This document shows positions 8,798-29,845 of a stretch of DNA of 36,916 nucleotides, piece after piece. This DNA is from a virus: IMG/VR virus record IMGVR_UViG_3300020371_000026, positions 1 to 36,916 of that record; one strand, written 5' to 3'. Below the pieces are notes generated by a model. That model ran no database searches and was not told the DNA's origin. It saw only the letters and a list, made by a program, of their open reading frames with translations. A program made the translations under genes and the position numbers. Position 1 is the first letter of the stretch. The number at the start of each line of letters is the position of its first letter.

Positions 8798-8805
8798 TAT
8801 TTATA
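8798..8805 (-). promoter_or_regulatory. T4-type late promoter TATAAATA
   Basis: The minus strand reads TATAAATA, a perfect T4 late promoter, 22 bases upstream of the ATG at 8776. It covers the stop codon of the 21-kb gene (TAA at 8801-8803). It would let the fibre-like gene and those after it be transcribed without reading through the giant gene. Confidence 0.75.
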
Positions 8806-11800
8806 GGATCTCTGGATCAATAACCTCTTCTCCATAATCTGCAAGATTTGGAGGAGTCCAATCATCAGGTACAGTTGTTTCAACTTCAATTTCTGGATTC
8901 TTATATCCAGATCCAGGGTTTGAAACAACGATACCACCAACACCAACCAGAGCTTTGATTTGTGCGTCAAATCCAGTGATAGAGTCAACACGAACATTTG
9001 GTCTGCTTGTATATCCAGAACCACCTGCAGTGACGCTTACCTTGTCAATCGTACCCGATGTCAAGATCGCAGATGCCTGAGCACCCTTACCAAAGACGGA
9101 TCCGAGATAATCGAATGTAATCAGAGAGTTGGAAGATTCAATAACAGCAACTTCACGATCTTCAGTTTCACCTTCAATCCTCAGGAAGTCTCCAGGTTCG
9201 ACGGGAGGAACAACCTCTGCCGCCTCAACATCCTGCTCAGAACCAACATAGGAGAATGCAACAAATGTAGATCCGAATCTAGGAATTTCAGAGAAGATAA
9301 TTCTAGAACCAACGATCTCAAAACCAACTCCAGGTTCCTGAAGAACACCATTGAGAGAAACGATGATGTTATTTTCAGGTCTGATAACGCTGGATTGTAC
9401 ACCTTCGGTCAATGTGAGCGAATAGAAAGTACCGTCACGCTTGAGGTTAAATGACTGTCTCAAGGAGTCGAAGTCGAATGAAATATCATCCAGTTGTCTC
9501 AGTTTACCAACATAGAATCCAGTGAACGAGGACCCAATCTCAGGTGCTTCTGTGAATGCAAGTTCATCAGAGAATGCCGTATAGGCGTTAGTTGCACCAG
9601 GAGGTTGCAGGATACCATTGACGAAGATGAGCATATGTCCTGCGGGATCAGGGAAGTATGGATCGCCATTGTTGGTTGTGAGCTTGAAGTTGGTTTGTAC
9701 ACCATCAAATCCTCTGAAGAATCTTCTCACGCGGGCGCGTAATTCTTCGCGTATGATTACAGCAGCACGATATCCATCTCCAGAAATAATCGTGTCTCTA
9801 CTAGAGAACGATCCAACAACATCGGTAAGATACAATCTCTTTCTGACGCCAACAGTCTTGATATCTTGAATCAGACCTGCGCCTGCACCAACATTAGTAA
9901 CCTTAGTAGATACCGTTGCGAATCCTTGAGGAGTATCGCCTACACCATAATCACCAACAAAATCTCCATTGTTGATATCACCAGATACCATAGAAACATA
10001 GATGTAGTTATTATCAAGATCAACTTCAGTGATAATGCCATAGTTGTTTTGGTCTCTAAGTACACCCGAAATTACGCGATATACAAAGTTTCCTTGAACA
10101 AAAGTATTCTGATTATTTACAATACTGATCAGCAATCTAGTGTGACCAGCAGATGCAACTCTGTCACCAACCTGAACATCCAGACCAGCGAATCTAGAAA
10201 CTTCCAGGAACTCGGAAGATGTTTCGGGATATACAACCGAAGTGACTTCAAAATTACCTGTGAGTGATGCAGTATCAACGGTCAGTTTACCACCAGTATT
10301 GCTGAGTACAGCAGCTTCTGCGACATGAATTTCTTCACAGTCTGCAGTAGCACCAGATGTAAATGCCTTGAACTCAACGCCCTGATCGAAGTTGCCAATC
10401 TTATTGATAACTTGAATTCGATCTTCAATAGCACCGATTTCTGCAGTGCTACCATTCTCAGCGCCCGTAAAGACATCTAAGATGGCAAATGCTGCACCTG
10501 TAATTTCTACATCAAAGTAAATATTATTTTCATCGGAATATGTGGCATAGATTGTACCAGCCTTTCCGCCAGTAGCAGTGATGTTTTCTCCAACTTGCAG
10601 AGCATCGCCAGTTACCTCACCATTGATTCTCCATCTCTGGTAAACCTTAACAATCTTCGCTTCGTTATTGGTGATCTGCTTCATTTCTGCATATGCAGAA
10701 CTGGAGAGACCGTAGAGAGCATCACCTTGACCAAGTTCACCCGAGATCGGTACAGGGACATATCGCGTACCATATGTGGAAGTAGGAACAGTAACACCAG
10801 AGACATTCTCAACAGTTGTCACATAACTGCTATTAAGAAGTTGTTGTCTCAGAATATTGAAGTTACGACGGACGACATTCATCCAGGAACTTGGAGTATA
10901 GAGGGGTGCGAGCGTGGAATTTGTATATGGAATGAAGGTTGTCAGAGGAGAAGGATCGGTAAGATCTTGCTCAAGAGCATCTCTATAGAATTCTTCCAAA
11001 CTATCAAGGATATAATTCTTGATGTTGAAGTCATTATCGGCGTAGAATGTACGACCAGAGACTGCAGTGTAGGGATCAAGAGGACCCTTAACCAACTTAG
11101 AACCCCAGATGTAAAGACCACTTGTACCATCTCCAGAATATACCAGAGCGCCAGCGTCATTCTTCACATAAACAATATTTCTCAGAGTGCCAATACCGAA
11201 GGAGAAAGTAATTGTCAGGAAACATCTGTACCAACCAGCACCTAGAGGTACGACACCATATGCATCAACCGTTGCACCAGTATCAGCGAAGACGCTACCG
11301 AAAGATCCGTCAGCAAGATCAACATCAAATACAACATCTTTGGGACTGTTACCAGGATCAAGGATGATTGCAAATCTTGCCTTATCATAATTATTTGCCT
11401 TCAGGAAGCAAGAGAATGTGAACTGCTGATTCTCAAGTCTAGAACCAGTTGAGAAGAAGTCAGACTCACTATCAAAAGAGGTGCCAGTACCATCGAATGT
11501 TGTATACGAGGTCAGGTTGTAATCTCTATTGATTGTGTGATATCCATTCTGAGCGGTCGGAACGAGACTCGTAGCAGTTACGGTCGCGTCAGGTGCATTT
11601 GTACCAGAGGTATTAGCAGTAACAGTTAAGTCTGCAGAAGTCCAGCTGGTTGTAAATGTTTCGGGATCAGGGAAGATATTATCGAATACGACTGCATTTT
11701 GTACAGTAGATTCAATAGTTCTAGCATTGACCAATGTCTGAACATTAGAGATCTCTTCGTAATAATCATACGATGCACTAACACCATTAGTGATAATAGT

Positions 11801-14800
11801 ACCACTGTTATTGCCTTGTGTAAGAGTTTCTCCATCAGCAAATGTAGATCCTGTGATAGGACCGACGACAAGAACATTGGTCTCATTATAATATTCAAGA
11901 ATTGTTGCCTTACCACCGCCACTAGAAGTGACAGTTTCACCAACTACAAAGACTTCATCGTTTGCATATACAGGATCTGCTTCTAATACAAATCGGGTAA
12001 CACCCCAGTCATCATAACTTACACCAGAATGGTTGTCCTGATGAATTTTGAAGTGAACGGATGCGCCTCTTGCAGCAGCAGGAAGACCAACTCTCTTTTG
12101 CTTGAGAACATCGAAAGAACTATCATCCTGATTAACAAGAATACCAAGAGATGTCCAAGTTGACTTGTTATTTGTGCTGTAAGACAGATACAGGTGCTCA
12201 TTTGCTTGACCTTCACCAGGTTGCTCACCACCATTGTTATCGTTACCTCTGATGACAGAGAATACAATGGCATCATAATTTGTGGTGTTAATCGCCTGCG
12301 TGGTAATGTATCTGGGTTGACCAGAAATGTCAGGACCATATCCAACGAATGTGGATGCTTGCAGGCAGAGTAATGTAGTATCGGGATCTGCGGTTGCAGC
12401 AGCAGTAGGTACAGTAAAGTTTGCAGTATATCTCAGGATATCACTAACCATGAATTCAGTCATCTTACCGTTAAACGGACGCTGGAACGGTTGTGTGTAA
12501 TCACCACCGATGTACCAGTTAAGACCACTAACTACTGGCCAAGAAGTGCTAACTTCAGTGTCTTTCAGAACACCATCCAAATACAGTTTTGTTGTATTTG
12601 TGCTTGCCTCATTGGTAATTGCAATGTGATGCCACTGTCCATTGCCATATTGAGAAGTTGCAATTTCCAGAGGAGACTGCTCAATTCCAGAAGCATCAGG
12701 AGCAAGAATTACAATTCTGTTCTGATCGCGTCTGATTTCAAGTCCACCAATATCAGCAAGAGTCTCATGTGCATTTACTGCAACCTGAGCATCTGTACGA
12801 TCAAAGTAGACAAAGAAACTAATTGTGAAGTCACCTGCGGGTGTAGTTGCGTTCTGAGAAAGTTGGAAAGTCGTATCGGTGAAGTAAACAACATCAGCGT
12901 TGGTGTTACCACCTTGACCAGGGAAGTCTACAGAGTACGGGAATCCAGCACCAGGAGTAGTGGTACTAATTGCAGGAGCACCATATACGGTGGGTGTAAA
13001 TACTGCAGCACCGCCAGGATAATCATTTGCGGGTGCCCCAGAACCGCCTGCCCACTTAAGGTGAGTACCGATTGCGAATCCACCGCCAGAACCGCCGCCA
13101 GTTCCACTGAAGGCGATATCAACACTCTGTCTATCATTGAAATCGAAGTATGTGGCGTCAGATGCCTGAACAACAATATCACCAACAACACTTCTAGTAA
13201 TCTCAATATCGCGTGCAGAAGATGCAACAGATGTGTCAGTTGTCACCATATCATGAATGGTGTCATCTAACAGACCAGCAATGAAGTCATCATATGTCCA
13301 TGCACCTGCTCCCCACTGACCAGTAACTCTAGCTTCAAGTTCTGTAGCAAAGTAGTTCTCATTGAATAAGAGCATTCTACCAGCAGATCTTGCCTTAGTT
13401 CCACCAGGAGTGAGACTATCAATAACAAGATCCATCAGAGAATCAAATGCCTGAATTACATCTGCACACTCGTTGTCATCATATGTGGTATCACCAGAAG
13501 AATCTGTAATAGTTGTGTCAGTATAAGGAATCTCGAAAGTATAGACCGCTCTATATTGATCACCAGTAGGACCGCCACCACGATCAAGCAGAAGGTTGTT
13601 GATTGCTTTCTTACCAAGCATTCTAACTTTCTGGAAGGCATAGATGGTAGGAAGAATTTGATCTTCTACCTGAGTGATGCCACGACCAGGAGTCAAATAT
13701 AGTTTGATCGCTTCAACTGTATTGCTATTACCACCTGTTAACAAGTCAGCAATAACACTGTTAAGAAGATCTTTGATGTCATCCATGCAGTTGTTTCTGC
13801 CATCTGTCTGACCACCAGGATACTGGAAAGCGCGATAAGATGTAGGTCCAAGGAGGTATGTGAAGTCTGCATCAGTGATGAGAGTTGCCTCATCTGCAAT
13901 AAAGTTCTTGTTAAAGTGCAGAAGATCAGCAGCGTCACGATATCTGTCACCAGAAGGTGCAAGGATGCTATTCGCTAGATCAATCAAACTATCAATTGCA
14001 GTTTGAACATTAGCGCAGTTACCAGGATCTTGAGTGATACCCCAATCTCCGATGATAATAGAATCTGTATTGTCAGTTGTCAGATCACCCGTGATTGCTT
14101 GCTTAGCGTAGAAACCAAGACGCTCATGTGCGTATGCAGACTGCAGAAGTTGGAGTCTTACATGCAAGATAACATCATTTTGACCAAGGTATGTCTTGAC
14201 ACCTTCGACAAGGTTGAAGTTGCCACCAAACTCAATGTCGCTAGCAATGGCATCAAGAATAAGTCCGAGGTCAGTCTTACATCTCAGAGTACCTGCAGTG
14301 CTTGCACCACCTTCATTTCTAGGCATAGACTGGGTAAGACCAGGATATCTTTCCAGCATGTCAAATGCGGTTTTATCGACGATTGCCTTTCTATTCAGAC
14401 GAATCAGATTGGCAGCATCTTGGAATCTATATTGTGAAGATGTATTGATCAAGTTAGCATACATCACATCACCTGCAACCGTGACATCAGTCAGGTCAAC
14501 AGGAACTTCCAGATATGAATCAACATATGCACCCAACCACTCATAGACAGGTGTTACTTTCGTAATAGTGGCAAGATGATCAACAGGAGAAGCAAGGTTT
14601 GCATTGGAAAGGGTATCCTTCACAATGTCCATCAGGTTACCGATAGTTGTTTGAACATCAGCACAATCAGCAGAAGTGTAATCCAGGACATCAATTGCAT
14701 TAGTTGCAGCAGAGACGAATGTGTGTGGATATTGCTGATTGGTGGGAGATGCACCAACATTTACCGTAAATGTATTGGTATCGAATGCAGTAACACGAAG

Positions 14801-17800
14801 AACTCTTCTGTATGCGGGATCAGTATCACGAGGATAAGAAACTTCCAGATTATTTCCATCATCAGTACATGTAAATGTTAATGATTCAAAATCAATACTG
14901 ATGCGACTAGAAGTGGTCAAACCGTGACCAGCAGAAGTCAATACTAAATCTCCAGTAGCAGGATCATAAGTTGCTGTAGAAGGAGTCAACTGAGTCAAAC
15001 TTCCATAGTTATTGGAATCATAGATTGTGGTATCAGTAAACTGAGTAAATCCATGGTCACCACTAATAGTAATCAGTTCATTGTTGATGATATCGTTGCA
15101 GAACTCAACATGTCTGTCAAGAATCCAAAGAGTCTGATCAATCTCAGTTTCAACATGGTTGAGACCAACAGGATTAGACTCTCTGTCAACATACAGAGCA
15201 GAAGCATCCCAAATATGGTTGTTAGAACCACTTCTCAGGTCATTAATAAGTGCCTGAGTGAGATCCTTAACATCGTCCTCACAATTAACCTTTTGATCTG
15301 CAACAACACTATTTTCAACAGCAGATACAAATCTATGGATATAGGTGCCACCAGTGATCACAGCATTAGGCGCTGCAGATACAAATGTATGGGCGTACTG
15401 ATTATCAGCAGCAGAAGCACCAACATTTACAGTTACAGTGCCAGTTTGCTTGATAAGAGCGTTAGCAGTAGCAGAAACAAAGGTATGTGTGTACTGAGAT
15501 GCTGGCGGAGACTGACCGACATCAATAGTAAAGGTATTAGCATCAACAACAGTAACAGGAACCCAAAGACCAGAGATAGGATCGCTGATTCTAGGATAAG
15601 TCTTCTGAGCAGTGTTGCCATCATCAGAACATGTGAATGTCAGAGAATCTGTTGCAATCTGAACCATGTTTCCAGTGGACAAACCATGTGTAGCAGAAGT
15701 GATCGTAAGGATACCTGTGCTAGCAACATATCCAGCGTTAGTAATATTAGCAGTGCTAGTACCAACAGCGGTTACTTCAATCGTCTTATTGTAAGCAGGA
15801 TCAGGTTGACCATCACCAGCAGTAGAACGAGGATATGAATGGTTTGATCCATCATTATCTTGATCACAAGTGAATGTGAAGGACTCATTAGCAAGTCTCA
15901 GTTTTGTTCCAACATTGATGTTATGGTTTGCAATGGTCATTACAAACTCACCATCAGCAGGGTTATAAGTTGCGTTGGTTGGAGTGTAGTAAATGAATGG
16001 AGAAGTTCCTACATTAACAGTGATACTGGTAGTTGTAGAGTTAATAATCGGAAGAGCATTATCTTTCGTAGCAGGATCAGTCAAACGAGGATATGTAACC
16101 TCAGTTTGGAAGTTGTCGCTAGAGCAAGTAAAGGTAAATGCGTCTCTATTGATCTTAATCCGATCTTTTTCAACTGTGATGCAGTTGTCAAGTGCAGAAA
16201 CAAATGTGTGAGCATATTGATCACTTGGACCAGAAGCACCAACATTAACTTCAAATGTATCTGTAGTTGCATTAGAAACAATCAACCATCTTCCAGCAGC
16301 AGGATCTGTAGAACGAGGATATGAATGATCAGTAGCATTACTATTCTGAGTGCAATTAAATGTCAGACCACCAACTTTGATGTTGACTCTCTTACCGTTA
16401 GTAACTCCATGACCTCTCTTGGTGATTTGAATGACACCTGTTGCAGGATCATATGTTGCACTAGCAGGAGTAAACTGACCACCATTTACCAGGTTGTTCT
16501 GAGTGACACCCATAGTCAGGAGACCTGTCAGAGGATCATAAGTTCCACTTGTAGGACTAAATCTTTGACCAGGAATAACCAGTTCAGGATATCTCTGCCT
16601 CATCAGATGAACTGCTTCAGAAGCAATCAGATCCTTGTTATTTTCAAGAAGTCTGGCAGCATCAGCATACCGATGAGTTTTGCCAACATATCCAGCAGGT
16701 GCTGCAGTATAGGTTCTTTGGGTTGTACGAATTGCATCGTTACCAAAGTCATCATGTCTTGTCCATGTAGCGGTTCCAGACCAATCATCGGTATAGGTAT
16801 CACCATTAGCACCATCAAAGTGGATCAGCAGAACTGTATCAGCATCCCCTTGGAATACACCTGTGGGAGCGGTGAACGCTGCAGTATACCTAGAATTAGT
16901 AGAAACTCTGAACTCATCAAGATATCCAGCAAAGCAGTTAGAACCAGCATAATCACCACCAATTCTAATCGGTTTTGTAGTACCATAGTTACTACCATCA
17001 GAATATGTGCTACCATCTTGAGCACCATTGATGAACAATCTTGTGCTGCTACCATTTCTAGTAAGAGCAACATGATACCAAGTTCCAGCAACTAAGTTTT
17101 GTGTACCAGCAATGACGATGCTTCCATTGTTGAAATACTTGACATTTGCACCATCAAGGTACAGATAAGGTGCCAATTCACTAGCAGCAGATCTGAAGTC
17201 AAAGATTGTCTTTGATCCAGCAATTACATGATTGGGTTTGATCCAGCACTCAATAGTGAAGTTACCAGAACCGAAACCAAACTCAGTAGAAGTCGGAACG
17301 CTCAGGAACTCATCTCTAGGAATAGCACCAACATTAACAGTGATTGTGGTATCAGTAAATGCAGTAATAGCAAGGTTGTTATTATATGCAGGATCAGTTG
17401 TACGAGGATATGTGTAAGGATTGGTATTATTGTCAGACTCACATCTGAATGTAAGAGCATTCTCAGCAATCAGAATAGTATTTGTAGTGTCAAGGGTATG
17501 TGTTCCAATCTCAATGACCATGACACCTGTCAGAGGATCATAAGTCGTTCCTGTAGCGGCAGTAAACAATGCAGAGTTATCTGCCGTAATACCTTCGGTA
17601 ACACCACTTACAAATGTGTGAGGAGATGTGCCTTTAGATAGTGCTAAAGCGGAAAGACCAAACTTCTTATTGTAGGTGTTTAATTCAGCACCTGCATTGA
17701 AAGTAAACTCATGATAATCTTGACCCGTAGACTTGGATCTACCAACTCTACCGAGATAGACAGTCTTTCTTGCTTGGTTATATGCAACAACTTCTGCTTT

Positions 17801-20800: not shown

Positions 20801-23800
20801 ACCAACTGCTTTCTCAGAACTTGTGGAATAGTTAACATTCTGAACATCTGCAGCACCTTCAGGTTCATTTACGAGAGGGAATCTAAATGTGTCTGCACCT
20901 CTAGTAATGGTTTCACCAGAAGTTCCAGTAAGAGTAAAGGTTCCTTCATACGGAGAAGCAACAACATCAAGATACGAACCAGCAATCACAGGAGAATCTG
21001 CACCTGTTCTAGAAGGATCGAAGTAGTAAGAGATATTTGTAACGATATCTTTATCAACCTTGAGTTTAACAGAAGGTGTTTGAGCACTACCTCCAGTAAC
21101 ACCAGGAGTACCAATACGCTCAATAGAGTTGAAAGAATACTCCAGTTTGTTCAAACTATCTTTGGAGAATGACAAGTTGCCACCAACCAAAGACGAATGA
21201 CTGAGATCAAAGATATACTGGTGACCATAATACATCTTCAGCGTTGGAGACTTAACAAAAATGTCTACATCCGCACCTGTAGTTGCAGGTGTTGTTACTG
21301 CAGGAGTACCAGTTGTGTTGATTCTATAAGTGAATTCCTTAACACTAATGACTTGTTCAACAGGGAAAGCACCATTATATTCATCATAAACAGTTCCATC
21401 AACCTCAGGAGTTGGATTACCATCAACATAGATGATTTCTCCATCAGAAAGATAGTGGCTTCTGCTACTAATTACATAAACAAGATCGCTATTTGTTACA
21501 GCAGTTGCCTGGAGAATCTTATTGAGGTTTGTAATAAGAGTGATCTTAAGAACGCCTGTCAGACCTTGGATGTTAATAGTATTATAATCCGAGTTATATG
21601 TTACTGTAGCATCATTCAGATTAACTACAGATCCAACAATATAGGGAGATCCGCCAGATGCTTCATCAATTCTTACCGTATAATCATTCTCATTTCCAGA
21701 ATAAGGTTTGAAGTATGAATATTCGTGGAGATTATTGGTGCCACCTACAATTGGAGGAGCATCAAAATCAGACATATCAATGTCAAATGTACCAGGAGTT
21801 GTGTTTACAATACCTGCAAATGTGTATCCTTCAATTTCGTTAACATCATTAACAACTGGACCTCTGATACCAAATGTTGTCTGCTCATCAAATCTTTCTG
21901 TAGCAAGATGACCAGTATTTAAATCATTACTCCAAGAGTTATTATTGATTGCAAGATAAACATATCTGTTTGTAGTATCAACATCAATAATGTAACCACT
22001 GTTGACAAACTGAGATCCGTTCATCAACTTGAGTTTAGAGTTAACAGTGAAGTTAAACGGCTGGTTAATTGTCAATCTTTGGACATTATCAATCTTTGTT
22101 GTATCAGTAACTTTGAAGAAATAACGATCTTTTACAACAGCGGTAGCTTGAACCTTCTGGGAACCAGGAGAAGGAACAGTTGCAGTTCTAGATCCCCAAA
22201 TATCCTGTGTAATTGCAACAGTCTCGGTATTTTGAGACATTGTGCTGTTGACATCATTGAAGTCAAGAGACTGGAATCCATCTCCACCTAAACCATAACC
22301 AACATTAGAAATGGTAAGAGCAGTTCCAGAAGGAGGATTGGCAAACTTATTGCTACGCAGAGAGATCTTAGTATTAGTTAATTTGGCACTAGGAACAGTT
22401 ACAGTAAGTCCCCTATCCATCTTGAGACCAATACCATCATAAGGAATATAGTCATATCTGGTTGTTGCTGCAGTAAACCAAGCATCATCAACCCAATCAA
22501 AGGCAAATCCAAATGCACCTGTAGTAGGAAGAACGGTAAAATCATTAGGAACGGTAGGAGTTACCATTCTATTCTTCAAAGTAAGGCAATCAACATAGAA
22601 TTGACCCTGATAACCAGAAACAAAATCTGTAGGATTAGTGCCCCAACCAACTTGGTTGCCAATATACAGATCTTTATTGCCAAGAGCAGTATCAGTTACA
22701 TTACCAGTTAATACTTCAATACCATTAACAAATGCTTTGAAGAGGGTGCCCTGCTTAGTAAGACTGATTACCTGCCAGGTATTATCAGCATACATTGTGG
22801 TAAGAGTAGAACTCAGACCAGAACCAGCTGCATCGAGTTGAGTTGAGTTGTTACTGATAACCATTTGCAGTTTACCAGTGTTACCAGTGTCATAACCCAA
22901 CCAAAGACCACCTGTTGCGTCCTGAGCACCACCAATACCAACCAGGGTCTGTACACCCTGAGATAAAGTTTGAGAGTTAGCAGCTTCTTTGTATACAAAG
23001 AATTGCAATGTCCAGTCACCATTTAGTGTATCTGCAAGAGATGCAGCAGGAACTTTCAGGTAAGAATTAGACCAAGTGGACTGAGCACCAGTTTCATATC
23101 CATAAAGTTTGAGGGTTCCGTCTGCAAATTCATGACCACCACTAGCACCAACAACTTCTACAGTATGGTGAGCGGTCAAATCAGTTGCATCAGAGTCAAA
23201 CTTACAAATCAGTTCATTTCTGTTCCAGTTAGACTGACCAAAGAAGTATGTGTCACCAGAAACATCAGTAAAGATCGTTTCCATAGTGAAACCTTCGATC
23301 TTAGTTGTTGTCGAAGATTGTGCATTTGGTTCAGAATGGATTGTAGAATTGTGAACTCCATCGCCATTGTACTTGATCTTGATTGCTTGTAAAGACTTTC
23401 TTCCGTTGGAATCTGTCTTATTAAGACCAATATTGAGATCACCAAAGATGTCAATAGCAGATCTATTGAGAAGATCAACTGAAATACCAGTTTCACCAGG
23501 TGCAGCAAGATATCTGTTATTCCATACAGTATTGCCGTTAATATCAAACTTACCTACCCAGAAACTATCTTTGGTGGTATGATTTGCCTTTGCTCTCAGA
23601 GTACAAGGAATATAGAACTCATTAAACTCATCAACAGAAAGTGAGGAGTTTAAGAACGAATATGTCGTGTTTGAAATTTCTTTGATCCAATTTACAGTAA
23701 GAGTAGAAATTCCAGGTGTTACCTTACCAAAACCAGCATTGATATTATTAGAAGTCTTAGAATCAGAAATCTCTAAACTAAAGTAAATATCACCATTTAC

Positions 23801-26800
23801 AATCTGGATATCTGTAACTTTCTCGGATGATGTATCAGATGCCAACTTACGCTTGGCAACAAAGAAACCAGATGTATCAATGACTGCCAGGAAAGCATCC
23901 CAAGGAGCACCAGAGTTTGTATCTGTAAATCCACCAAATACAAAGCGAGAATCGGTAAGTTTCTTGAATGCTGTAACATTATCAGATCTAGTAGAACCAG
24001 AAATACCAGCATATGCTTTCTGGAAGTCCAGAGTTGCATCAAGACCATTTACATTTTGAACATACTTTGCCAGAATGATATCTGGATTGTATGCTTCAAG
24101 TACAGTAATATTCGGTTTGTTGATACCAAGAACCCAAATATCATTACCATCTACAATAATTCTTTGGAATTCTGTATATGTTCCACTTGCAGGAACAAGA
24201 GTTTCTAAAGTTTTCTGCCACTCAAGAACACCTGTTGCGGAAATCTTCGCAAGGAAACCAACTTTATTTCCAATATCATCTTCAGTAGAACCACAGATAT
24301 ATGCTTCTTTATTTTCAGTTACTTGAATATCAATAATATTTGCCCAATCATTGTTATCCAAAATCAGATTATAATAATCTGATTTTTTGAAGACCTGAGG
24401 ATGAGAAAGAATAACACGAGGATTCTGGGTATATCCAGAACCAGAGTTGAGGATGTTGAAGGACTTAATAGCACCAACAGCATCAACAACAGATTCGACT
24501 CTACCGTCTACACCATCACCATCAATAGTGATTGTGGGAGGGATATCGGTATTGTATCCACTACCATTTTGGGTGACAACAATTTCTTCAATACCCTTAT
24601 ATTGACGAACAATGAAAGTTTTGTTCGTGTTATCCATCACAGGAGTGTAATCGACAAAAATCTGGTCACCAGCAACAATGTTGTGGGGATCCTGAGTTTG
24701 TAATACACCAAAGTTTGTTCCTTCTACGGTTTCGTAGTTATAAGAAACGACTTTTTCACCTTTGATTTTAGAAATACGAGCGGAAGCACCCGTTCCATCG
24801 GTGTCAGTGTTGTCAAAGACCAATCTATCATTGACCTGATAGTTTGTTCCAGCATTTTCAATAGTAAATCCAGTTACAGATGCATCTTCAAATTTACTGA
24901 TCGTTTCAACTTCAATATCAACTTTAGAGTCAAACTTAACTTTAGGGAAGTAATCAAAGAGTTGCAGAGGAGATTCTTCCAACATTTCGTCAGGATCGTC
25001 AGTTTCTGCTTGACTGATAAATCCGTCTCTGTTCTCATCTTCAATTTCAAACAGTAAAATATCACCGCCTTCCGTGGTCAGACTGTTTGTAGACGCATTG
25101 GGAACACGCTCAACATCAATATCAACATTTTCATACGGATCGCGATAACGAACAACACCTTCAGGGATGTTCTGTTGGACTGCCTGATCGACGAGATTCC
25201 ACTTATCTACAACAGAATTATACTGGGGACCAAGAATATACGGGAATACGGGATTACCGTCTTCTGTAGCGTCAATAGTTACGAAGTAACAATATCTACC
25301 ATTAGAATATTCTGGGGTTTTACAGAATCTACCGTTATATTGATCAAGATCACCAGAACCGAACACATATTCATAGTCTTCAACAAAGTTACCAGCGGGT
25401 TCGTCATTGAGAGAAGGACCTGCTGTTCTAACAGGATATGGATTGGTGACATCATTATAAACCAGTTCACTCTTCAGGGAGTAAGAACTACCCATTCTCT
25501 TGATAGAAGATGACTGATTAGTGGGGTCAGAATAACCATAAGGACCATAGATTGGGTTTCCATCAAATGCCCAACCAATAATCGGAGAGTGCTCTAACTG
25601 CTCTTCCTGTTCTTTGATCTGCCCCAAAGAGTTTTGGAACAAGCTATCACCAAGAATATACCTCAAACGCTGAGGATTAGACAGGTGTGCATACTCACCA
25701 CCATACTGGACATTATAACCTTCAAAGATAGCACCTTTTGCCGAATCTAAAGCTGTGGTTTCCTGCAGGTTGTAGTTCCACTGGAAGACTTCAGCTTCAA
25801 ATTGAGCATCACTACCAACCGATGTCAGACCAATAGAAGTTGTTCCTTGCTGATATCCAATACCTCTGTTGATAATTTCAACACCAGTAACTCTACCAGC
25901 ATTCTCACCATCAGTATCAATAGTTGCTTTTGCGATAGCACCGAAACCATCACCCTGAATGGTGACCTCAGGAGCAGTAGTATACCCACTACCTGCGGAA
26001 ATAATAGCAACAGAGATGATTCTACCATCATTAACAATAGCTTGTGCTACGGCACCTTTACCAGAACTCAGAACAACATCAGGTTTCTTGGTATAAGAAG
26101 CACCGCCATTGGTGATATTAACCTCTTTAATAGGACCACGAACATATGCAGTTGCAGTAGCACCCGTGCCACCACCACCAACAATGGTGATAGACGGTTG
26201 AGAAGTGTATCCAGATCCGCCTTCATTAACAAGAATTCTAGAAACTCTACCCTTTGTGATGATAGCAGTTGCAGAAGCACCAGAACCACCGCCACCAACG
26301 ATAGAAACAAGAGGTGAAGATGTATACCCAGATCCGCTTTCGTTGACCTCAATTTCATACATTGATCCATCAACTACAACATCTGCGGTAGCACCACCAC
26401 CAAATCCACCAGAAATGGTAATAACTGGCGGACTTGCAGCATCATAATCCTTACCAGGATTCAAAATGTTGATATTAGTTACCGCACCAAAGGTAGACTT
26501 GAGTTCTGACTTGTAAGACCAAACGGAAACACCGTTAACCCAAGTACCAATAGGTCCAGGTACAATATCAGTCTTTGTTGAAATTGTAAGGGGATTTCTG
26601 TTGAAACGATTTAATTTTCTCTGGTTACCTGGTAAGAGAGCAGATCCAATGAAAGGACCAATCTCATAGTTAGGAATACCAGTAGAAGCGATATAAACAT
26701 AGTTATCGTTAAAGAACGAGTTTTGGACATTAGTTGTGTAAGGTCCAATAGCGTTCTGAATTGCTTGTGTGATTGACTTGCCTTTGTTGAGGTCAACAGA

Positions 26801-29800
26801 GATCAAAATGTTACCTTGGGGTACAACCGATGCTGGTTGTGGTAACTGATACTGGAACACCGTCTGAGAGTCCCTAGAAGTGACCAGGAAGGTGCCGTTA
26901 TACAAAATAGGGTTAGCACCATAGACAGTCACCTGATCGCCCACCAGAAGACCGTGTGGAGCAGAGCAGGTAACGGTTGCAGATTGGTTATTAACACCAC
27001 CAAATGTTACCGAAGCAACTTCAACCAGTTTTTTAACATTGTACAACCAAGTGGTAAGTTGAGGAATTGTAGAAGTACCACCCAACTTAGACACACTGAG
27101 TTTATCACCTGGCAGATAATATGAACCAGTATCAGTCAATGTGGTTTGTTGTGCATCAACAATACCAACAATATTCATAACAACTTCTTGAGGAGTATCC
27201 TTGTTCAGAAATACTCTAAAGTTAGAAGACACTTCTGTTGCAGAATCCCAGTCTTCAACAACACTGTTTACGGAACGAGTACACTCAATAAACTGGTTAA
27301 GAGACTTTTCTTTGTATTCTACGACCTCACTACCGCCAATAATGAACTGACCGTTTCTTTCTGGCCAACCAATGGTAGAGTCAACTGTAATAATACTATC
27401 TGTTGCGTTCAATGGTTCCGCAAGTCTAGTCTTATAAGGTACAGTAAATCTACCACTAATGGTCTCTTCAGAGAGAACCAATTCAAAAATTTCCGTTTCG
27501 GATGTCTTAATTGAGATATAGTTTTCTACAAGTGCGCTTGCATCTTGTACATTAGGGTCAGCAATGTCTGCTTCCTGCACCAAAAGCGAGTCTTTAATGT
27601 TTGCGGGATCGCCAGAAACCAAAGTAGCACGCAAAATGGTATCAATGGACCATGTTGCAGAGGAAGGTTTGATGATCTGGTCCTTCGGATAGGTGATATT
27701 TACGGATTCACCGTACAGAAGTTTGAACAAATACGCAATACTGAAGGTTGTGCCCTTACTAGTATAGAAGTCTTTGATCGTTTTAATTGCAGTACGAACA
27801 TCGATCTTCTTATAGTCCAGCTCAGGAACATCTGGAAGGAACTGTTCTGTGTACTTATCAAGGACTCTCTTGATAAATGCTGCGTCAAGACACTTAACAA
27901 CAGCACCATTTTCCGCAGATTGGGGAGTTGTATCGTTATGGAACTCCGCATTTCCGATAGAATCATACCCAGTGATGCCAGATACACCTCTGGCACAACC
28001 AATAAACGCGGACTTAGAGTATCCAGAACCAGGTTTATTGACATTAAAACCAGTTACCTCGTTCTGACCAACCTCAACAGACGCTCTTGCCTGGGGAGGT
28101 GCCTGAATAACGATGTTTGGAGGGAAGTCTGCACTATATCCACTACCAAAATTAGTGATGTTAATATCAGTAATTCTGCCATTAAAGACAGATGCAGCAG
28201 CAGTTGCACCTGTTCCACCACCAGAAGTTCTAGGATCAACAACATATACAGAAGGAATCTCTTCGTAACCAACACCACCGTCGAGAAGTTCAATATTTGT
28301 TACACGACCAGTACCATCAACGAATGTTTGTAAAACTTGTGCTCCAACAGGATCAATTACTGCAATTCTAGGAGGATTCTCATAACCCTGACCAGGGTTC
28401 ATGATAGTAATAGATGCCAGTTCACCCTCAGGAGACAAAACTGCTAATAAAGATGCTTTGATTCCGTTTGCACCAGTCGGTTCATCAACATAAATGACTG
28501 GAGGAGTAGTATATCCAAACCCATTATCAGTGATTTCTATAGGACCAACAAGAGATCCATTAAGGATTTGGGGAGTTGCAATTTTTGCACCACCAGGTTG
28601 CTTGAAAGTAACTCTAGGAGTAAAAGTATATCCACTACCAGAATTCTCTAATGTAAGAGCAGTAACGCTACCATTAGTAACAGTTGCTTTGATACTAGCA
28701 ATCTGAGAATCAGTTCTAGTTGGATTCTCAATGATTACAGTAGGGGGGTTAGTGTCGCTGTAACCCGATCCACCGTCAATTAGGGTGATATTCTTCACAC
28801 CATTGACAAGGGCGCTTGCAGAGGCACCTAGACCCTCATCAGAGTTAATAGAGATCTTGGGTGGATACTCAAATCTATATCCAGAACCAGTTTCTGCAGA
28901 TGAAATAGAAGTAAGTTCACCAGAATCATTAATTTTAGCGTAACCAACAGCACCATCACCGAAAGAAGGAATGGGCGCTTCAATTGAATAAAGAGTTAAC
29001 TGTCTACCAATGATTGGGGCAGTTTGGAAGATAAACTTATCCTTATCAACATAATAATCTACTTTCGGAGTAAGCAATACACCATCATAAATGGCAATTA
29101 CATACTCATCAGCAATAGGTTCGTAAGAAACACCAGTTTTAGTCAGACTAAAAGTATCTTTTTGCTCACCAAACGCACTAGAAATATTGTCAACCAGAAC
29201 AATCGGGTTCTCAATAAAACCATTAAGGTATGTGATGTAGGTCGTGCTAACATCATCTTCCGCTTGCCTTGCTCTAGGAGCAGTCTCAAAGACAATATTC
29301 GTACCTTGAATTGTGTAGTCAATAACAGGAACCAGAACTTCACCATACAATCTGACGATCAGATGCTGTGGAGAAGGAGGACCAATAGGACTTTCTTGTG
29401 AAATCAGAGGAAAACTTCTTGTCGTTCCGTCAAAACTATCGACAATAGAAGCGAGTGTTGTCCACTTTAACTTTACCTGCTCATATGAAATGCCAGGACT
29501 AAATGCAATATTGGGTGAACGAGTAAGACTCTCGTAGTAAATTACCTCATCACCAATCAAAATAGACCCGTTTTTCTCCAAAAACTGGTCAACAGACTCT
29601 ACAACGATCTCCGTAGATGTAGAATCGATCGGTTCGATCAATTTAGTCGCACCATCAAGAATGTCAACATTCAGACGATCAATATCTAGATACGAAAGAA
29701 AATTATTGACAATATTTTGACCCAGACCAGTCTTTTCCTGAGATTTATAATAATACTCTAGGAATTTGGCGAATATTGGATATTCTGACTGGACAAACTC

Positions 29801-29845
29801 TGGTGTTTGAGATAATAAAGACTGGGAGACCTTATTAATGTTCAT
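8801..29845 (-). CDS. 7: Giant gp7-like baseplate wedge protein (7014 aa)
   Basis: A single uninterrupted frame of 7014 codons between gp6 and the fibre-like gene, the place of gene 7 in T4. Three scattered segments resemble the C-terminal part of T4 gp7: the N-terminal helix (SEYPIFAKFLEYYYKSQ, residues 20-36); residues about 650-720, with TIKDFYTSKGTTFSIAYLFK (T4: DFYSTKGIEASYKFLFKVLY); and WKDILIRNVHPAGFKVFG near 3490 (T4: DVIRFVHPVGFGF). Between and after them lie inserted modules: GSGY arrays (315-615, 1123-1340, 3012-3245), YHYH (1416-1546), a propeller-like stretch (1820-2220), LamG-like domains (2239-2430, 4176-4333, 5668-5817), a degenerate cupredoxin-like segment (2869-2950), Cys/HTFVSA repeats (4080-5053), helical repeats (4388-5530), a Reelin-like module (5858-5958) and NGVLQ-type modules near both ends. 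T4 gp7 has 1032 residues. The ribosome binding site is weak (AAAGTAG directly before the ATG). Assignment to gp7 rests on synteny plus short motifs recalled from memory. Confidence 0.85.
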   Translation of the reverse strand: MNINKVSQSLLSQTPEFVQSEYPIFAKFLEYYYKSQEKTGLGQNIVNNFLSYLDIDRLNVDILDGATKLIEPIDSTSTEIVVESVDQFLEKNGSILIGDEVIYYESLTRSPNIAFSPGISYEQVKLKWTTLASIVDSFDGTTRSFPLISQESPIGPPSPQHLIVRLYGEVLVPVIDYTIQGTNIVFETAPRARQAEDDVSTTYITYLNGFIENPIVLVDNISSAFGEQKDTFSLTKTGVSYEPIADEYVIAIYDGVLLTPKVDYYVDKDKFIFQTAPIIGRQLTLYSIEAPIPSFGDGAVGYAKINDSGELTSISSAETGSGYRFEYPPKISINSDEGLGASASALVNGVKNITLIDGGSGYSDTNPPTVIIENPTRTDSQIASIKATVTNGSVTALTLENSGSGYTFTPRVTFKQPGGAKIATPQILNGSLVGPIEITDNGFGYTTPPVIYVDEPTGANGIKASLLAVLSPEGELASITIMNPGQGYENPPRIAVIDPVGAQVLQTFVDGTGRVTNIELLDGGVGYEEIPSVYVVDPRTSGGGTGATAAASVFNGRITDINITNFGSGYSADFPPNIVIQAPPQARASVEVGQNEVTGFNVNKPGSGYSKSAFIGCARGVSGITGYDSIGNAEFHNDTTPQSAENGAVVKCLDAAFIKRVLDKYTEQFLPDVPELDYKKIDVRTAIKTIKDFYTSKGTTFSIAYLFKLLYGESVNITYPKDQIIKPSSATWSIDTILRATLVSGDPANIKDSLLVQEADIADPNVQDASALVENYISIKTSETEIFELVLSEETISGRFTVPYKTRLAEPLNATDSIITVDSTIGWPERNGQFIIGGSEVVEYKEKSLNQFIECTRSVNSVVEDWDSATEVSSNFRVFLNKDTPQEVVMNIVGIVDAQQTTLTDTGSYYLPGDKLSVSKLGGTSTIPQLTTWLYNVKKLVEVASVTFGGVNNQSATVTCSAPHGLLVGDQVTVYGANPILYNGTFLVTSRDSQTVFQYQLPQPASVVPQGNILISVDLNKGKSITQAIQNAIGPYTTNVQNSFFNDNYVYIASTGIPNYEIGPFIGSALLPGNQRKLNRFNRNPLTISTKTDIVPGPIGTWVNGVSVWSYKSELKSTFGAVTNINILNPGKDYDAASPPVITISGGFGGGATADVVVDGSMYEIEVNESGSGYTSSPLVSIVGGGGSGASATAIITKGRVSRILVNEGGSGYTSQPSITIVGGGGTGATATAYVRGPIKEVNITNGGASYTKKPDVVLSSGKGAVAQAIVNDGRIISVAIISAGSGYTTAPEVTIQGDGFGAIAKATIDTDGENAGRVTGVEIINRGIGYQQGTTSIGLTSVGSDAQFEAEVFQWNYNLQETTALDSAKGAIFEGYNVQYGGEYAHLSNPQRLRYILGDSLFQNSLGQIKEQEEQLEHSPIIGWAFDGNPIYGPYGYSDPTNQSSSIKRMGSSYSLKSELVYNDVTNPYPVRTAGPSLNDEPAGNFVEDYEYVFGSGDLDQYNGRFCKTPEYSNGRYCYFVTIDATEDGNPVFPYILGPQYNSVVDKWNLVDQAVQQNIPEGVVRYRDPYENVDIDVERVPNASTNSLTTEGGDILLFEIEDENRDGFISQAETDDPDEMLEESPLQLFDYFPKVKFDSKVDIEVETISKFEDASVTGFTIENAGTNYQVNDRLVFDNTDTDGTGASARISKIKGEKVVSYNYETVEGTNFGVLQTQDPHNIVAGDQIFVDYTPVMDNTNKTFIVRQYKGIEEIVVTQNGSGYNTDIPPTITIDGDGVDGRVESVVDAVGAIKSFNILNSGSGYTQNPRVILSHPQVFKKSDYYNLILDNNDWANIIDIQVTENKEAYICGSTEDDIGNKVGFLAKISATGVLEWQKTLETLVPASGTYTEFQRIIVDGNDIWVLGINKPNITVLEAYNPDIILAKYVQNVNGLDATLDFQKAYAGISGSTRSDNVTAFKKLTDSRFVFGGFTDTNSGAPWDAFLAVIDTSGFFVAKRKLASDTSSEKVTDIQIVNGDIYFSLEISDSKTSNNINAGFGKVTPGISTLTVNWIKEISNTTYSFLNSSLSVDEFNEFYIPCTLRAKANHTTKDSFWVGKFDINGNTVWNNRYLAAPGETGISVDLLNRSAIDIFGDLNIGLNKTDSNGRKSLQAIKIKYNGDGVHNSTIHSEPNAQSSTTTKIEGFTMETIFTDVSGDTYFFGQSNWNRNELICKFDSDATDLTAHHTVEVVGASGGHEFADGTLKLYGYETGAQSTWSNSYLKVPAASLADTLNGDWTLQFFVYKEAANSQTLSQGVQTLVGIGGAQDATGGLWLGYDTGNTGKLQMVISNNSTQLDAAGSGLSSTLTTMYADNTWQVISLTKQGTLFKAFVNGIEVLTGNVTDTALGNKDLYIGNQVGWGTNPTDFVSGYQGQFYVDCLTLKNRMVTPTVPNDFTVLPTTGAFGFAFDWVDDAWFTAATTRYDYIPYDGIGLKMDRGLTVTVPSAKLTNTKISLRSNKFANPPSGTALTISNVGYGLGGDGFQSLDFNDVNSTMSQNTETVAITQDIWGSRTATVPSPGSQKVQATAVVKDRYFFKVTDTTKIDNVQRLTINQPFNFTVNSKLKLMNGSQFVNSGYIIDVDTTNRYVYLAINNNSWSNDLNTGHLATERFDEQTTFGIRGPVVNDVNEIEGYTFAGIVNTTPGTFDIDMSDFDAPPIVGGTNNLHEYSYFKPYSGNENDYTVRIDEASGGSPYIVGSVVNLNDATVTYNSDYNTINIQGLTGVLKITLITNLNKILQATAVTNSDLVYVISSRSHYLSDGEIIYVDGNPTPEVDGTVYDEYNGAFPVEQVISVKEFTYRINTTGTPAVTTPATTGADVDIFVKSPTLKMYYGHQYIFDLSHSSLVGGNLSFSKDSLNKLEYSFNSIERIGTPGVTGGSAQTPSVKLKVDKDIVTNISYYFDPSRTGADSPVIAGSYLDVVASPYEGTFTLTGTSGETITRGADTFRFPLVNEPEGAADVQNVNYSTSSEKAVGSIADVRIVNKGGFYTRLPVISGIQSNRKIERVQINEPGTEYAPGQYNNVPIQGDGEGGLVNITVEDTQDAEGTTIPGQITSAIVSSPGKGYTTATIDIAGINGILGPSLSGSGADLEVVIPPFGTGASVFTKGTEVGKIKKLKNNNFGYDYPHDYTLRPEITFPLNCQLTSTSILDSITVTNPGSGYSQAPAVIISGGGGSGATAESTISNGRLDQIIVKDPGAGYSSTPTVSLKSSFNYVVNLDLGLLQFAFPHGILNGAEVTLNVTDTGDGAEFPLSSGAIGRLNGNTTYYAIAGSAQSLDDDQLRLAITAANAELGDALTFVNAGTGRQQVLTESFGGAAEANVITSTFLEGELIYQGLSIETATATGYVSTNNGWQVGPRVLKIVDYDGEFVEGERITGIISKSSGLISDLKVAKGVLEIGSITKTTGQFIDDVGKPSEIIQKIQDSYFYQDFSYAVKSSVSVSEWKDILIRNVHPAGFKVFGELNLDDYATIPNKETSFELTKSVQLAQEAVVPNIQSFALVEPIYQEFNNTEVLFRQKRLTSSENILTSVVQRLDNISNLFDGVRIAFPLSVNGETVVAAANQLMIVMNGVVQTPEVAFKIEGDSIVFAEPPAPPASVKYAEITIEQIPQTDFTFTNQSGIFPNTGNVFVGTASQARMTVTSVTGNTVRGFMTEGTFQAGELITGNTTGFSGNLDTETAVVNDGLFLFNEQVTNFDGATAKVEQINLEAGTENALATLRFGIGTSTAQFEILGDIANFAVNDNIQISAEIMTITDVQAGTDDGVVVLDVIRGQLGTTAIAHLQSAPLYSTEITITNELILSKTAGTYQSTPGLFDIALNDIIIAAGSGVVARVTATSAYQDPATDQFISQVNISEGSSFFGLLFNRIQSVNYQNIVLDDIAASQISIVDFEDNETAFDSNFPANELVNNIVIDVVNVNGTFQEGEMIRNKKIEVNNPIGDFISDESAIVRKLTHTNTLGKGFFSPGQVIRNTNSKAEVVAYNQARKTVYLGRVGRSKSTGQDYHEFTFNAGAELNTYNKKFGLSALALSKGTSPHTFVSGVTEGITADNSALFTAATGTTYDPLTGVMVIEIGTHTLDTTNTILIAENALTFRCESDNNTNPYTYPRTTDPAYNNNLAITAFTDTTITVNVGAIPRDEFLSVPTSTEFGFGSGNFTIECWIKPNHVIAGSKTIFDFRSAASELAPYLYLDGANVKYFNNGSIVIAGTQNLVAGTWYHVALTRNGSSTRLFINGAQDGSTYSDGSNYGTTKPIRIGGDYAGSNCFAGYLDEFRVSTNSRYTAAFTAPTGVFQGDADTVLLIHFDGANGDTYTDDWSGTATWTRHDDFGNDAIRTTQRTYTAAPAGYVGKTHRYADAARLLENNKDLIASEAVHLMRQRYPELVIPGQRFSPTSGTYDPLTGLLTMGVTQNNLVNGGQFTPASATYDPATGVIQITKRGHGVTNGKRVNIKVGGLTFNCTQNSNATDHSYPRSTDPAAGRWLIVSNATTDTFEVNVGASGPSDQYAHTFVSALDNCITVEKDRIKINRDAFTFTCSSDNFQTEVTYPRLTDPATKDNALPIINSTTTSITVNVGTSPFIYYTPTNATYNPADGEFVMTIANHNINVGTKLRLANESFTFTCDQDNDGSNHSYPRSTAGDGQPDPAYNKTIEVTAVGTSTANITNAGYVASTGILTITSATHGLSTGNMVQIATDSLTFTCSDDGNTAQKTYPRISDPISGLWVPVTVVDANTFTIDVGQSPPASQYTHTFVSATANALIKQTGTVTVNVGASAADNQYAHTFVSAAPNAVITGGTYIHRFVSAVENSVVADQKVNCEDDVKDLTQALINDLRSGSNNHIWDASALYVDRESNPVGLNHVETEIDQTLWILDRHVEFCNDIINNELITISGDHGFTQFTDTTIYDSNNYGSLTQLTPSTATYDPATGDLVLTSAGHGLTTSSRISIDFESLTFTCTDDGNNLEVSYPRDTDPAYRRVLRVTAFDTNTFTVNVGASPTNQQYPHTFVSAATNAIDVLDYTSADCADVQTTIGNLMDIVKDTLSNANLASPVDHLATITKVTPVYEWLGAYVDSYLEVPVDLTDVTVAGDVMYANLINTSSQYRFQDAANLIRLNRKAIVDKTAFDMLERYPGLTQSMPRNEGGASTAGTLRCKTDLGLILDAIASDIEFGGNFNLVEGVKTYLGQNDVILHVRLQLLQSAYAHERLGFYAKQAITGDLTTDNTDSIIIGDWGITQDPGNCANVQTAIDSLIDLANSILAPSGDRYRDAADLLHFNKNFIADEATLITDADFTYLLGPTSYRAFQYPGGQTDGRNNCMDDIKDLLNSVIADLLTGGNSNTVEAIKLYLTPGRGITQVEDQILPTIYAFQKVRMLGKKAINNLLLDRGGGPTGDQYRAVYTFEIPYTDTTITDSSGDTTYDDNECADVIQAFDSLMDLVIDSLTPGGTKARSAGRMLLFNENYFATELEARVTGQWGAGAWTYDDFIAGLLDDTIHDMVTTDTSVASSARDIEITRSVVGDIVVQASDATYFDFNDRQSVDIAFSGTGGGSGGGFAIGTHLKWAGGSGAPANDYPGGAAVFTPTVYGAPAISTTTPGAGFPYSVDFPGQGGNTNADVVYFTDTTFQLSQNATTPAGDFTISFFVYFDRTDAQVAVNAHETLADIGGLEIRRDQNRIVILAPDASGIEQSPLEIATSQYGNGQWHHIAITNEASTNTTKLYLDGVLKDTEVSTSWPVVSGLNWYIGGDYTQPFQRPFNGKMTEFMVSDILRYTANFTVPTAAATADPDTTLLCLQASTFVGYGPDISGQPRYITTQAINTTNYDAIVFSVIRGNDNNGGEQPGEGQANEHLYLSYSTNNKSTWTSLGILVNQDDSSFDVLKQKRVGLPAAARGASVHFKIHQDNHSGVSYDDWGVTRFVLEADPVYANDEVFVVGETVTSSGGGKATILEYYNETNVLVVGPITGSTFADGETLTQGNNSGTIITNGVSASYDYYEEISNVQTLVNARTIESTVQNAVVFDNIFPDPETFTTSWTSADLTVTANTSGTNAPDATVTATSLVPTAQNGYHTINRDYNLTSYTTFDGTGTSFDSESDFFSTGSRLENQQFTFSCFLKANNYDKARFAIILDPGNSPKDVVFDVDLADGSFGSVFADTGATVDAYGVVPLGAGWYRCFLTITFSFGIGTLRNIVYVKNDAGALVYSGDGTSGLYIWGSKLVKGPLDPYTAVSGRTFYADNDFNIKNYILDSLEEFYRDALEQDLTDPSPLTTFIPYTNSTLAPLYTPSSWMNVVRRNFNILRQQLLNSSYVTTVENVSGVTVPTSTYGTRYVPVPISGELGQGDALYGLSSSAYAEMKQITNNEAKIVKVYQRWRINGEVTGDALQVGENITATGGKAGTIYATYSDENNIYFDVEITGAAFAILDVFTGAENGSTAEIGAIEDRIQVINKIGNFDQGVEFKAFTSGATADCEEIHVAEAAVLSNTGGKLTVDTASLTGNFEVTSVVYPETSSEFLEVSRFAGLDVQVGDRVASAGHTRLLISIVNNQNTFVQGNFVYRVISGVLRDQNNYGIITEVDLDNNYIYVSMVSGDINNGDFVGDYGVGDTPQGFATVSTKVTNVGAGAGLIQDIKTVGVRKRLYLTDVVGSFSSRDTIISGDGYRAAVIIREELRARVRRFFRGFDGVQTNFKLTTNNGDPYFPDPAGHMLIFVNGILQPPGATNAYTAFSDELAFTEAPEIGSSFTGFYVGKLRQLDDISFDFDSLRQSFNLKRDGTFYSLTLTEGVQSSVIRPENNIIVSLNGVLQEPGVGFEIVGSRIIFSEIPRFGSTFVAFSYVGSEQDVEAAEVVPPVEPGDFLRIEGETEDREVAVIESSNSLITFDYLGSVFGKGAQASAILTSGTIDKVSVTAGGSGYTSRPNVRVDSITGFDAQIKALVGVGGIVVSNPGSGYKNPEIEVETTVPDDWTPPNLADYGEEVIDPEIL
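12395..12850 (-). other. LamG-like domain C in the gp7-like protein
   Basis: Residues about 5668-5817: AGDFTISFFVYFDRTD, GLEIRRDQNRIVIL, YGNGQWHHIAITNEASTNTT then KLYLDGVLKDTEVS, WYIGGDYTQPFQRPFNGKMT then EFMVSDILRYTANFTVP. The order of elements matches domain B. A Reelin-like module (VIRGNDNNGGEQ ... YDDWGVTRF) follows at about 12275-11975. Confidence 0.7.
13260..16690 (-). repeat. Helical repeat series in the gp7-like gene
   Basis: Four copies of a two-part helical module. Part 1 has the pattern Y-R-x-A-A-x-L-L-x-x-N-K-x-x-I-A-x-E-A (RYADAARLLENNKDLIASEA, YRFQDAANLIRLNRKAIVDK, YRDAADLLHFNKNFIADEAT, KARSAGRMLLFNENYFATEL). Part 2 begins with Cys (CEDDVKDLTQALINDL, CKTDLGLILDAIASDI, CMDDIKDLLNSVIADL), and a related linker begins C-A-D/N-V-x-x-x-I/F-x-x-L-x-D (near 14670, 14020, 13470). 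In the first copy the two parts are separated by about 430 residues of Cys/HTFVSA repeats. Confidence 0.7.
14690..17620 (-). repeat. Cys/HTFVSA repeat series in the gp7-like gene
   Basis: Six partial or complete units of roughly 100-130 residues. A full unit reads YDPATGxLxxTxxxHGL, then SLTFTC-x-D-D-G-N, then YPR-x-x-D-P, then FTVNVGAS, then QYxHTFVSAxxNAI. The conserved Cys after TFT or TFR or TFN occurs near 17450, 16355, 16120, 15870, 15640 and 14870. HTFVSA-like endings occur near 17600, 16200, 15480, 15390, 15320 and 14720. The DNA word GCACCAACATT recurs near 14751, 15417, 16236 and 17325, so the copies are partly alike at base level. Units are interrupted by LamG domain B and by the first helical repeat. 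Confidence 0.75.
16845..17320 (-). other. LamG-like domain B in the gp7-like protein
   Basis: Residues about 4176-4333 are a textbook LamG/concanavalin-like module: FGSGNFTIECWIKP, YLYLDGANVKYFNNGS, AGTWYHVALTRNGSSTRLFI with NGAQDGS, IRIGGDYAGSNCFAGYLDEF and RVSTNSRYTAAFTAP. This is the clearest of the three copies in the protein. Confidence 0.75.
20120..20815 (-). repeat. GSGY beta-repeat array 3 in the gp7-like gene
   Basis: About six looser units (residues about 3012-3245), for example NKGGFYTRLPVISG, EPGTEYAPGQYNNVPIQGDG, SPGKGYTTATIDIAG, NPGSGYSQAPAVIISGGGGS and DPGAGYSSTPTVSL. It precedes the last gp7-like core segment near residue 3490. Confidence 0.75.
22555..23130 (-). other. LamG-like domain A in the gp7-like protein
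   Basis: Residues about 2239-2430 show the concanavalin-like pattern: NSYLKVPAASL, GDWTLQFFVYKE, a central strand with WLGYDTGNTGKLQMVI, DNTWQVISLTKQGTLFKAFV with NGIEVLTG, KDLYIGNQVG and GYQGQFYVDCLTLKN. Such domains bind sugars or proteins in other systems; a host-surface binding role here is inferred. Confidence 0.6.
23190..24385 (-). other. Beta-propeller-like stretch in the gp7-like protein
   Basis: Residues about 1820-2220 carry six to seven units with the blade pattern D/G-x-x-L-A-K-x-x-x-x-G-x-x-x-W-x-K: GFLAKISATGVLEWQKTL, DIILAKYVQNVNGLDATLDF, DAFLAVIDTSGFFVAKRKL, SFWVGKFDINGNTVWNNRYL and KSLQAIKIKYNGDGVH. This resembles bacterial seven-bladed propeller repeats (SBBP type). The unit count is by eye. 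Confidence 0.55.
25200..25610 (-). other. YHYH-type domain in the gp7-like protein
   Basis: Residues about 1416-1546 include HSPIIGWAFDGNPIYGPYGY, then FVEDYEYVFGSGDLDQYNGR, TPEYSNGRYCYFV and PVFPYILGPQYN. The same blocks occur in the 1544-aa protein downstream, where a second domain splits them. The family is common in cyanophage structural proteins and in some bacteria; its function is not known to me. Confidence 0.7.
25830..26480 (-). repeat. GSGY beta-repeat array 2 in the gp7-like gene
   Basis: Five to six tandem units (residues about 1123-1340), more regular than array 1: ESGSGYTSSPLVSIVGGGGS, EGGSGYTSQPSITIVGGGGT, NGGASYTKKPDVVLSSG, SAGSGYTTAPEVTIQGDG. Two units are close at DNA level as well, which points to recent duplication or gene conversion. 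A YHYH-type domain follows. Confidence 0.8.
28000..28900 (-). repeat. GSGY beta-repeat array 1 in the gp7-like gene
   Basis: About eight tandem units of 35-45 residues, each with a G-x-G-Y turn, two or three residues, then P-P/R-x-I/V, often followed by G-x-G-A-x-A-x-A. Examples are DGGSGYSDTNPPTVII, NSGSGYTFTPRVTF, NPGQGYENPPRIAV and NFGSGYSADFPPNIVI. The pattern suggests a beta-solenoid-like or stacked-hairpin shaft. The array sits between the N-terminal part and the gp7-like core segment at residues 650-720. Confidence 0.8.

Follow-up and report, generated by a model that had tools for sequence, protein, structure and literature searches.

The window analysed here (the whole stretch of DNA, 36,916 nt, from a 36.9-kb metagenomic virus fragment) carries a cluster of baseplate wedge genes on its minus strand, in the order gp25, gp6, a giant gene, a gp9/10-like gene, a gene whose 1,544-aa product matches YHYH, gp8, and the first part of a VrlC-type gene (Table 1). 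The giant gene is a single open frame of 21,045 bases (7,014 codons and a stop, no internal stops), which confirms the sequence-only reading of one 21-kb open frame between gp6 and a late promoter. Its start is separated from gp6 by 20 bases and its end from the gp9/10-like gene by 24 bases, and it lies directly behind gp6, the position expected of gp7. Upstream of gp25 (32298-36916) only short, hypothetical minus-strand frames were seen. The 1,544-aa YHYH protein (2915-7549, minus strand) shares PHROG families with parts of the giant, and gp8 matches the same families, suggesting that repeat modules are common to neighbouring baseplate genes.

Table 1. Genes, core pieces and modules of the giant gene locus (positions in the window)
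Feature	Position	Strand	Details
VrlC-type protein	1..1341	-	first 447 aa, cut by the window end; DUF4815; 49% identity to P-HM2 VrlC
gp8	1341..2873	-	510 aa
gp9/10-like protein	7556..8776	-	406 aa
T4-type late-promoter word TATAAATA	8798..8805	-	exact; overlaps the stop codon of the giant gene
Giant gene, predicted gp7	8801..29845	-	7,014 aa, 754.8 kDa
C-terminal arm	8804..19315	-	residues 3511-7014
RcGTA head-spike fibre-related domain	11084..11452	-	residues 6132-6254; NCBIfam E 2.2e-14; PDB 6tb9 E 2.3e-9
Reelin subrepeat-like module	11990..12319	-	residues 5843-5952; Pfam E 7.3e-12
Laminin G-like module	16895..17245	-	residues 4201-4317; Pfam E 8.2e-17
Core piece m3	19316..19468	-	residues 3460-3510; aligned to T4 gp7 865-889; PF23786 E 0.037, under cut-off
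Insert 2	19469..27640	-	residues 736-3459
YHYH domain	25268..25618	-	residues 1410-1526; Pfam E 9.1e-31
Core piece m2	27641..27883	-	residues 655-735; aligned to T4 gp7 730-758
Insert 1	27884..29665	-	residues 61-654; eight GxGY repeats at 320-606
Core piece m1	29666..29824	-	residues 8-60, about T4 gp7 645-690; HMM and compact relatives
gp6	29866..31878	-	670 aa
gp25	31878..32297	-	139 aa

The late-promoter word TATAAATA, a consensus also quoted in a passage of PMC5587285, has one exact occurrence in the whole window; with one mismatch allowed it was no commoner than chance (44 found against 51.8 expected). An exact copy lies at most 45 bases from the end of this gene in 8 of the 13 phages compared, the window included.

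Seven isolates encode collinear proteins of 6,076-7,312 aa that are 49-71% identical over 6,030-6,246 positions, and homology to the cyanophage T4-GC969 and T4-GC397 giants (S-SM1, 6,180 aa; P-SSM4 gp7, 7,312; Syn9, 6,076; S-RIM8 gp7, 6,395) is collinear over the whole length. The S-SM1 orthologue is T4-GC969, which, by the account in one part of PMC3037559, mass spectrometry by Sullivan and colleagues revealed in virions of S-SM1. Since isolates carry the same gene at similar size, the gene is real and typical of its group. In the alignment of the seven isolates, conservation is best at residues about 600-1800, 3000-3600 and 6600-7014, while residues 4400-6000 are the most variable. The giant is like the T4-GC969/397 proteins in its collinearity over about 6,000 positions, its place, its core pieces and most of its modules, and differs from them by two extra stretches in the C-terminal arm, at about 4426-4800 and 5550-5845. 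The first is missing in most of the seven isolates; it is covered in full, at 61.6% identity, in S-TIM4 ORF_101 (the S-TIM4 version of the giant) as well as in a P-RSM4 structural protein. For the second (12311-13198, minus strand) no close relative was found: the best 12 of 39 phage matches cover only the next 100 residues, and an IMG/VR scan, sensitive to close relatives only, returned none. Residues 5690-5840 resemble, at E 1e-5 or better, the laminin G-like module that seven other giants carry at about 4250-4340; in the window's own giant this module lies at 4201-4317.

Kinship of the core pieces to T4 gp7

The sequence-only reading had picked out three short segments resembling the C-terminal part of T4 gp7, and all three lie at the places it gave. 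We compared 173 windows of 120 residues, drawn from an alignment of eight giants, with a profile of seven T4-type gp7s. The top six windows all fell on residues 692-717 (T4 733-758) or 3476-3502 (T4 866-892), with a score of 31.1 for the sixth window and 21.8 for the seventh; the best probability was 95% for m2 and 39% for m3. Core piece m1 aligned with the expected part of T4 gp7 (649-673), but at background score (rank 12).

Profiles of 15 members, built without the T4-type gp7s, were then searched against 177,635 distinct PDB sequences. T4-type gp7s came first and second with both m2 (E 4.7e-7 and 8e-7; next match 0.084) and m3 (E 0.019 and 0.023; next match 0.67), so that the profile similarity on which the claim of a gp7-like protein depended is present. 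The m1 profile alone found no gp7 among these sequences. When m1 and m2 of the compact relatives were searched together as a 24-member profile, T4 gp7 645-760 was matched at E 1e-11 and a second gp7 at 1.4e-8 (next match 0.027). Alignment of 72 compact cores to the T4-type profile with hhalign gave 97.5% across T4 642-762 and a score of 89.6, against no more than 25.1 in 100 column shuffles; with single T4 sequences the compact core scored 78.3 for gp7 and 20.1 for the best of ten other structural proteins. The m3 profile scored 38.1, against no more than 23.8 in 100 shuffles, but its scores with single T4 sequences were 27.3 for gp7 and 24.1 for gp5, which makes m3 modest when taken alone.

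The same picture came from HMMs trained on 19 gp7s from outside the T4 branch, for which E-values were obtained on 27 proteins: m2 matched all seven T4-type gp7s at E 2e-9 or better, m3 all seven at 2e-4 or better, and m1 six of the seven, weakly (E 0.07-27). Among 8,724 frames, T4 gp7 was matched at E 6.1e-8 by m2 and at 0.0019 by m3. As judged from these profile comparisons, the three core pieces are shown to be homologous to T4 gp7 at about 645-760 and 865-892, in the same order. The original claim of three pieces stood up directly for m2 and m3; m1 remained at background in the direct scan, and its kinship to gp7 is supported through the compact relatives.

Pairwise similarity between the giant and T4 gp7 is weak (E 4-8). 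PF23786 exceeded its 27-bit cut-off on residues 1-1400 (28.9 bits, E 1e-6) and stayed under it on m3 alone (13.9 bits) and on the N terminus of four isolates (E 0.0018-0.0135); piece by piece, in whole-record searches, it reached the cut-off in none of 12 records. PF21427, PF21456 and PF21428 (T4 gp7 domain V, domain VI and the helical domain) matched T4 and none of five pieces of the giant; these families are models of T4-branch proteins, and part of what they cover falls outside the common core. Searches of the PDB with phmmer found neither gp7 nor any other convincing match for residues 1-1400, 1401-2800, 2801-4200 and 4201-5600. An NCBIfam search of the giant gave no baseplate match, and the PHROG that matches it best, phrog_701, belongs to the head and packaging category. 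AlphaFold2 modelled the insert in residues 1-800 (with 58 relatives) as beta-rich with fair confidence and the core helices at pLDDT below 50, and Foldseek matched this model to no PDB entry at E <= 0.001. For a compact pelagiphage gp7 (with 39 relatives) AlphaFold2 gave no confident core (pLDDT 42.8).

A graded series of gp7 frames

All three pieces, at E < 1e-3, were found in 201 frames (152 of them closed), and the order m1-m2-m3 is kept in every one, as the sequence-only reading had it for the window; the best frame outside this set had an E of 0.11. Among four groups of frames, the gap between m1 and m2 measures 6-27 residues in the compact group (72 frames), 125-132 in the pelagiphages (76), 602-613 in the window's close relatives (35) and 4-618 in the named phages (18). 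The corresponding distances between m2 and m3 are 100-1,135, 372-392, 2,715-2,809 and 103-2,833 residues. The shortest frame, counted stop to stop, has 458 aa and the longest, that of P-RSM6, 8,573 aa. The gene takes its place in a series of graded length, in which growth occurs between the core pieces and behind them. At three of 265 loci (L022, L073 and L118) the core pieces are split over two frames, perhaps through frameshifts or contig errors. No relative turned up when contigs of bacterial and archaeal genomes were scanned with m3.

The split core described for the window, with an excursion of about 2,720 residues between the second and third pieces and 3,500 residues after the third, is borne out; as a peculiarity of this virus it is not, being common to the related cyanophages looked at. 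T4 gp7, too, carries a stretch of about 100 residues (Pfam domain V, 766-861) between its counterparts of m2 and m3. T4 gp7 (1,032 aa) is like the giant in having homologous core pieces in the same order and a gene behind gp6, and unlike it in that its core is preceded by about 640 residues, its m1 and m2 have no insert between them, and its C-terminal part is short. Compact gp7s (OC, 631 aa; phiM12, 1,007; ACP17, 482; Ps15, 503; pelagiphage Mosig, 874) share the three pieces and the gene order with the giant, whereas their inserts are small (in OC about 103 residues between m2 and m3). For gp17 of Vibrio phage XM1 (242 aa) the comparison rests on the description in a passage of PMC10457771, where it is called the T4 gp7 orthologue and portions beyond its core bind spikes; unlike the giant it is minimal.

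The gene of the window typifies a cyanophage gene that is already known, though under inconsistent names. Depositors call it gp7 in P-SSM4, P-HM2 and S-RIM8, and elsewhere 'virion structural protein', 'hypothetical protein' or, in Syn9, 'putative fiber'. In S-SSM7 the second frame annotated as gp7 (SSSM7_103, 3,001 aa, L086:29760-38765) lacks all three core pieces and is likely misnamed, while its neighbour SSSM7_101 has them all. In Ochrobactrum phage OC, p051 (L084:7914-9797) is annotated 'T4-like gp7' yet sits in the place of gp6, and p050, which follows it, is the real gp7. What is new here is the split-core anatomy and the correction of a published absence of gp7; no publication that reports the split core or the sites of growth was found among the open-licence literature.

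Modules of the excursions

Self-comparison of the giant in chunks was used to find internal repeats. The eight GxGY repeats of insert 1 are spaced by about 40 residues, and insert 2 contains further GxGY repeats and a YHYH domain. Among 26 other gp7s searched, the YHYH domain was detected in 12, in each case between m2 and m3. A section of PMC7824862 predicts YHYH to be a metal-dependent hydrolase; the naming motif in the giant seems to read YCYF, so this activity is not to be assumed. In the C-terminal arm, the head-spike-like domain is present in all seven aligned isolates and the reelin-like module, among these, in S-RIM8 only. The RcGTA head-spike fibre binds capsular polysaccharide, as stated in part of PMC10218006. 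Residues 4385-4431 (16553-16693, minus strand) gave a Pfam Phycobilisome match over the cut-off (E 1.3e-5); it falls within a helical segment of which the arm has further copies, and may be due to chance or be an echo of host pigment proteins.

Proposed place of the giant protein in the baseplate

By position and profile similarity, the giant is read as the gp7 of this phage, a baseplate wedge protein. In T4 there is one gp7 per wedge, and gp7 starts wedge assembly. We propose, with a probability of roughly 0.75, that the giant acts as gp7 with a core closed from three pieces together with two gp6 chains, that its excursions belong to the outer baseplate and that its arm has a share in host binding. 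The three pieces would meet in space, in the manner of the nearly contiguous core of the small relatives, and with two gp6 chains would form the (gp6)2-gp7 wedge unit, as in T4 and XM1. The chain would leave the core twice, for about 590 and about 2,720 residues, and end in a tail of 3,500 residues. The excursions, with their beta repeats and YHYH, laminin G-like and head-spike-like modules, would build the outer baseplate, with six chains of about 755 kDa each, should every wedge contain one, and the C-terminal arm may contribute to binding polysaccharide on the host surface. The excursions could gain or swap modules with the core untouched. The idea of the sequence-only reading that an assembly protein has become a scaffold for surface modules fits the modules found. 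The proposed arrangement has parallels in passages of two papers. In XM1, spikes attach to the gp7 orthologue both at its C-terminal end and at a stretch within the core domain (PMC10457771); in cyanophage A-1(L) the long tail fibre is held by a wedge protein at an insertion (PMC10966104).

The giant could instead be a fibre or adhesin fixed to the baseplate, its gp7-like pieces serving as attachment motifs and the wedge being made by another protein. The adhesin-type modules, the 'putative fiber' annotation of the Syn9 orthologue and the filing of phrog_701 outside the baseplate would suit such a protein, but it would not be expected to keep all three pieces in order in 201 of 201 frames, nor to lie consistently behind gp6 in the named records inspected, down to proteins of 482 aa. 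A separate gp7, which would have told against the earlier reading, was found in none of 11 named cyanophage records searched with the T4 gp7 profile and PF23786 (the window's own record is a fragment). With the T4 gp7 profile the giant frame was the sole match in 10 of the 11 (S-PM2 gave no match), and PF23786 likewise had it as the sole match in 10 of the 11, with no match in S-SSM7 or T4; phrog_964 had no match in S-PM2. Each of the two gp7 searches matched in one of 14 control genomes. We consider a plain fibre improbable, and somewhat more improbable still that the giant is made as gp7 and then cut during assembly, the core and the modules ending as separate proteins. Cutting would ease the reassembly of distant pieces, but with m3 lying after an insert of 2,720 residues, cuts would leave the core in separate chains.

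According to a passage in PMC7029224, pelagi- and cyanomyophages have no T4 gp7, its place apparently being taken by VrlC, in which case the giant would be something else. The giant's low pairwise similarity to T4 gp7 accords with that statement; however, the gp7 core is present in both groups, the window, P-HM2 and pelagiphage Mosig each have VrlC as a gene of its own in the neighbourhood, and VrlC-type genes also stand beside the small gp7s of phiM12, ACP17 and Ps15. We therefore reject the substitution, which we regard as very unlikely, and our profile comparisons contradict the published absence of gp7 from these two groups. Least probable of all is that the 21-kb frame arose as a join during assembly. 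Its source is a metagenomic fragment, and for one stretch (residues 5550-5845, in which a local error is conceivable) no close relative was found, but the collinear frames of seven isolates and the full match of residues 4426-4800 in S-TIM4 and P-RSM4 argue against it.

Returning to the giant as gp7, a broader version is tentative, and we think it less likely to be right than wrong: the outer baseplate would be largely one polypeptide, with gp7 acting as both wedge and host-contact layer, the core closed across 590 and 2,720 residues and the excursions self-folding, and host range would shift partly through exchange of modules at a few permitted sites.

These results give an identity to a giant, inconsistently named gene of marine cyanophages. 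They present one assembly protein whose core order is kept from frames of 458 residues to 8,573 residues, with growth at the same sites, and they make a definite structural prediction of where the core lies and at which points the arms leave it. They also direct work on host range to modules that are now filed as hypothetical.
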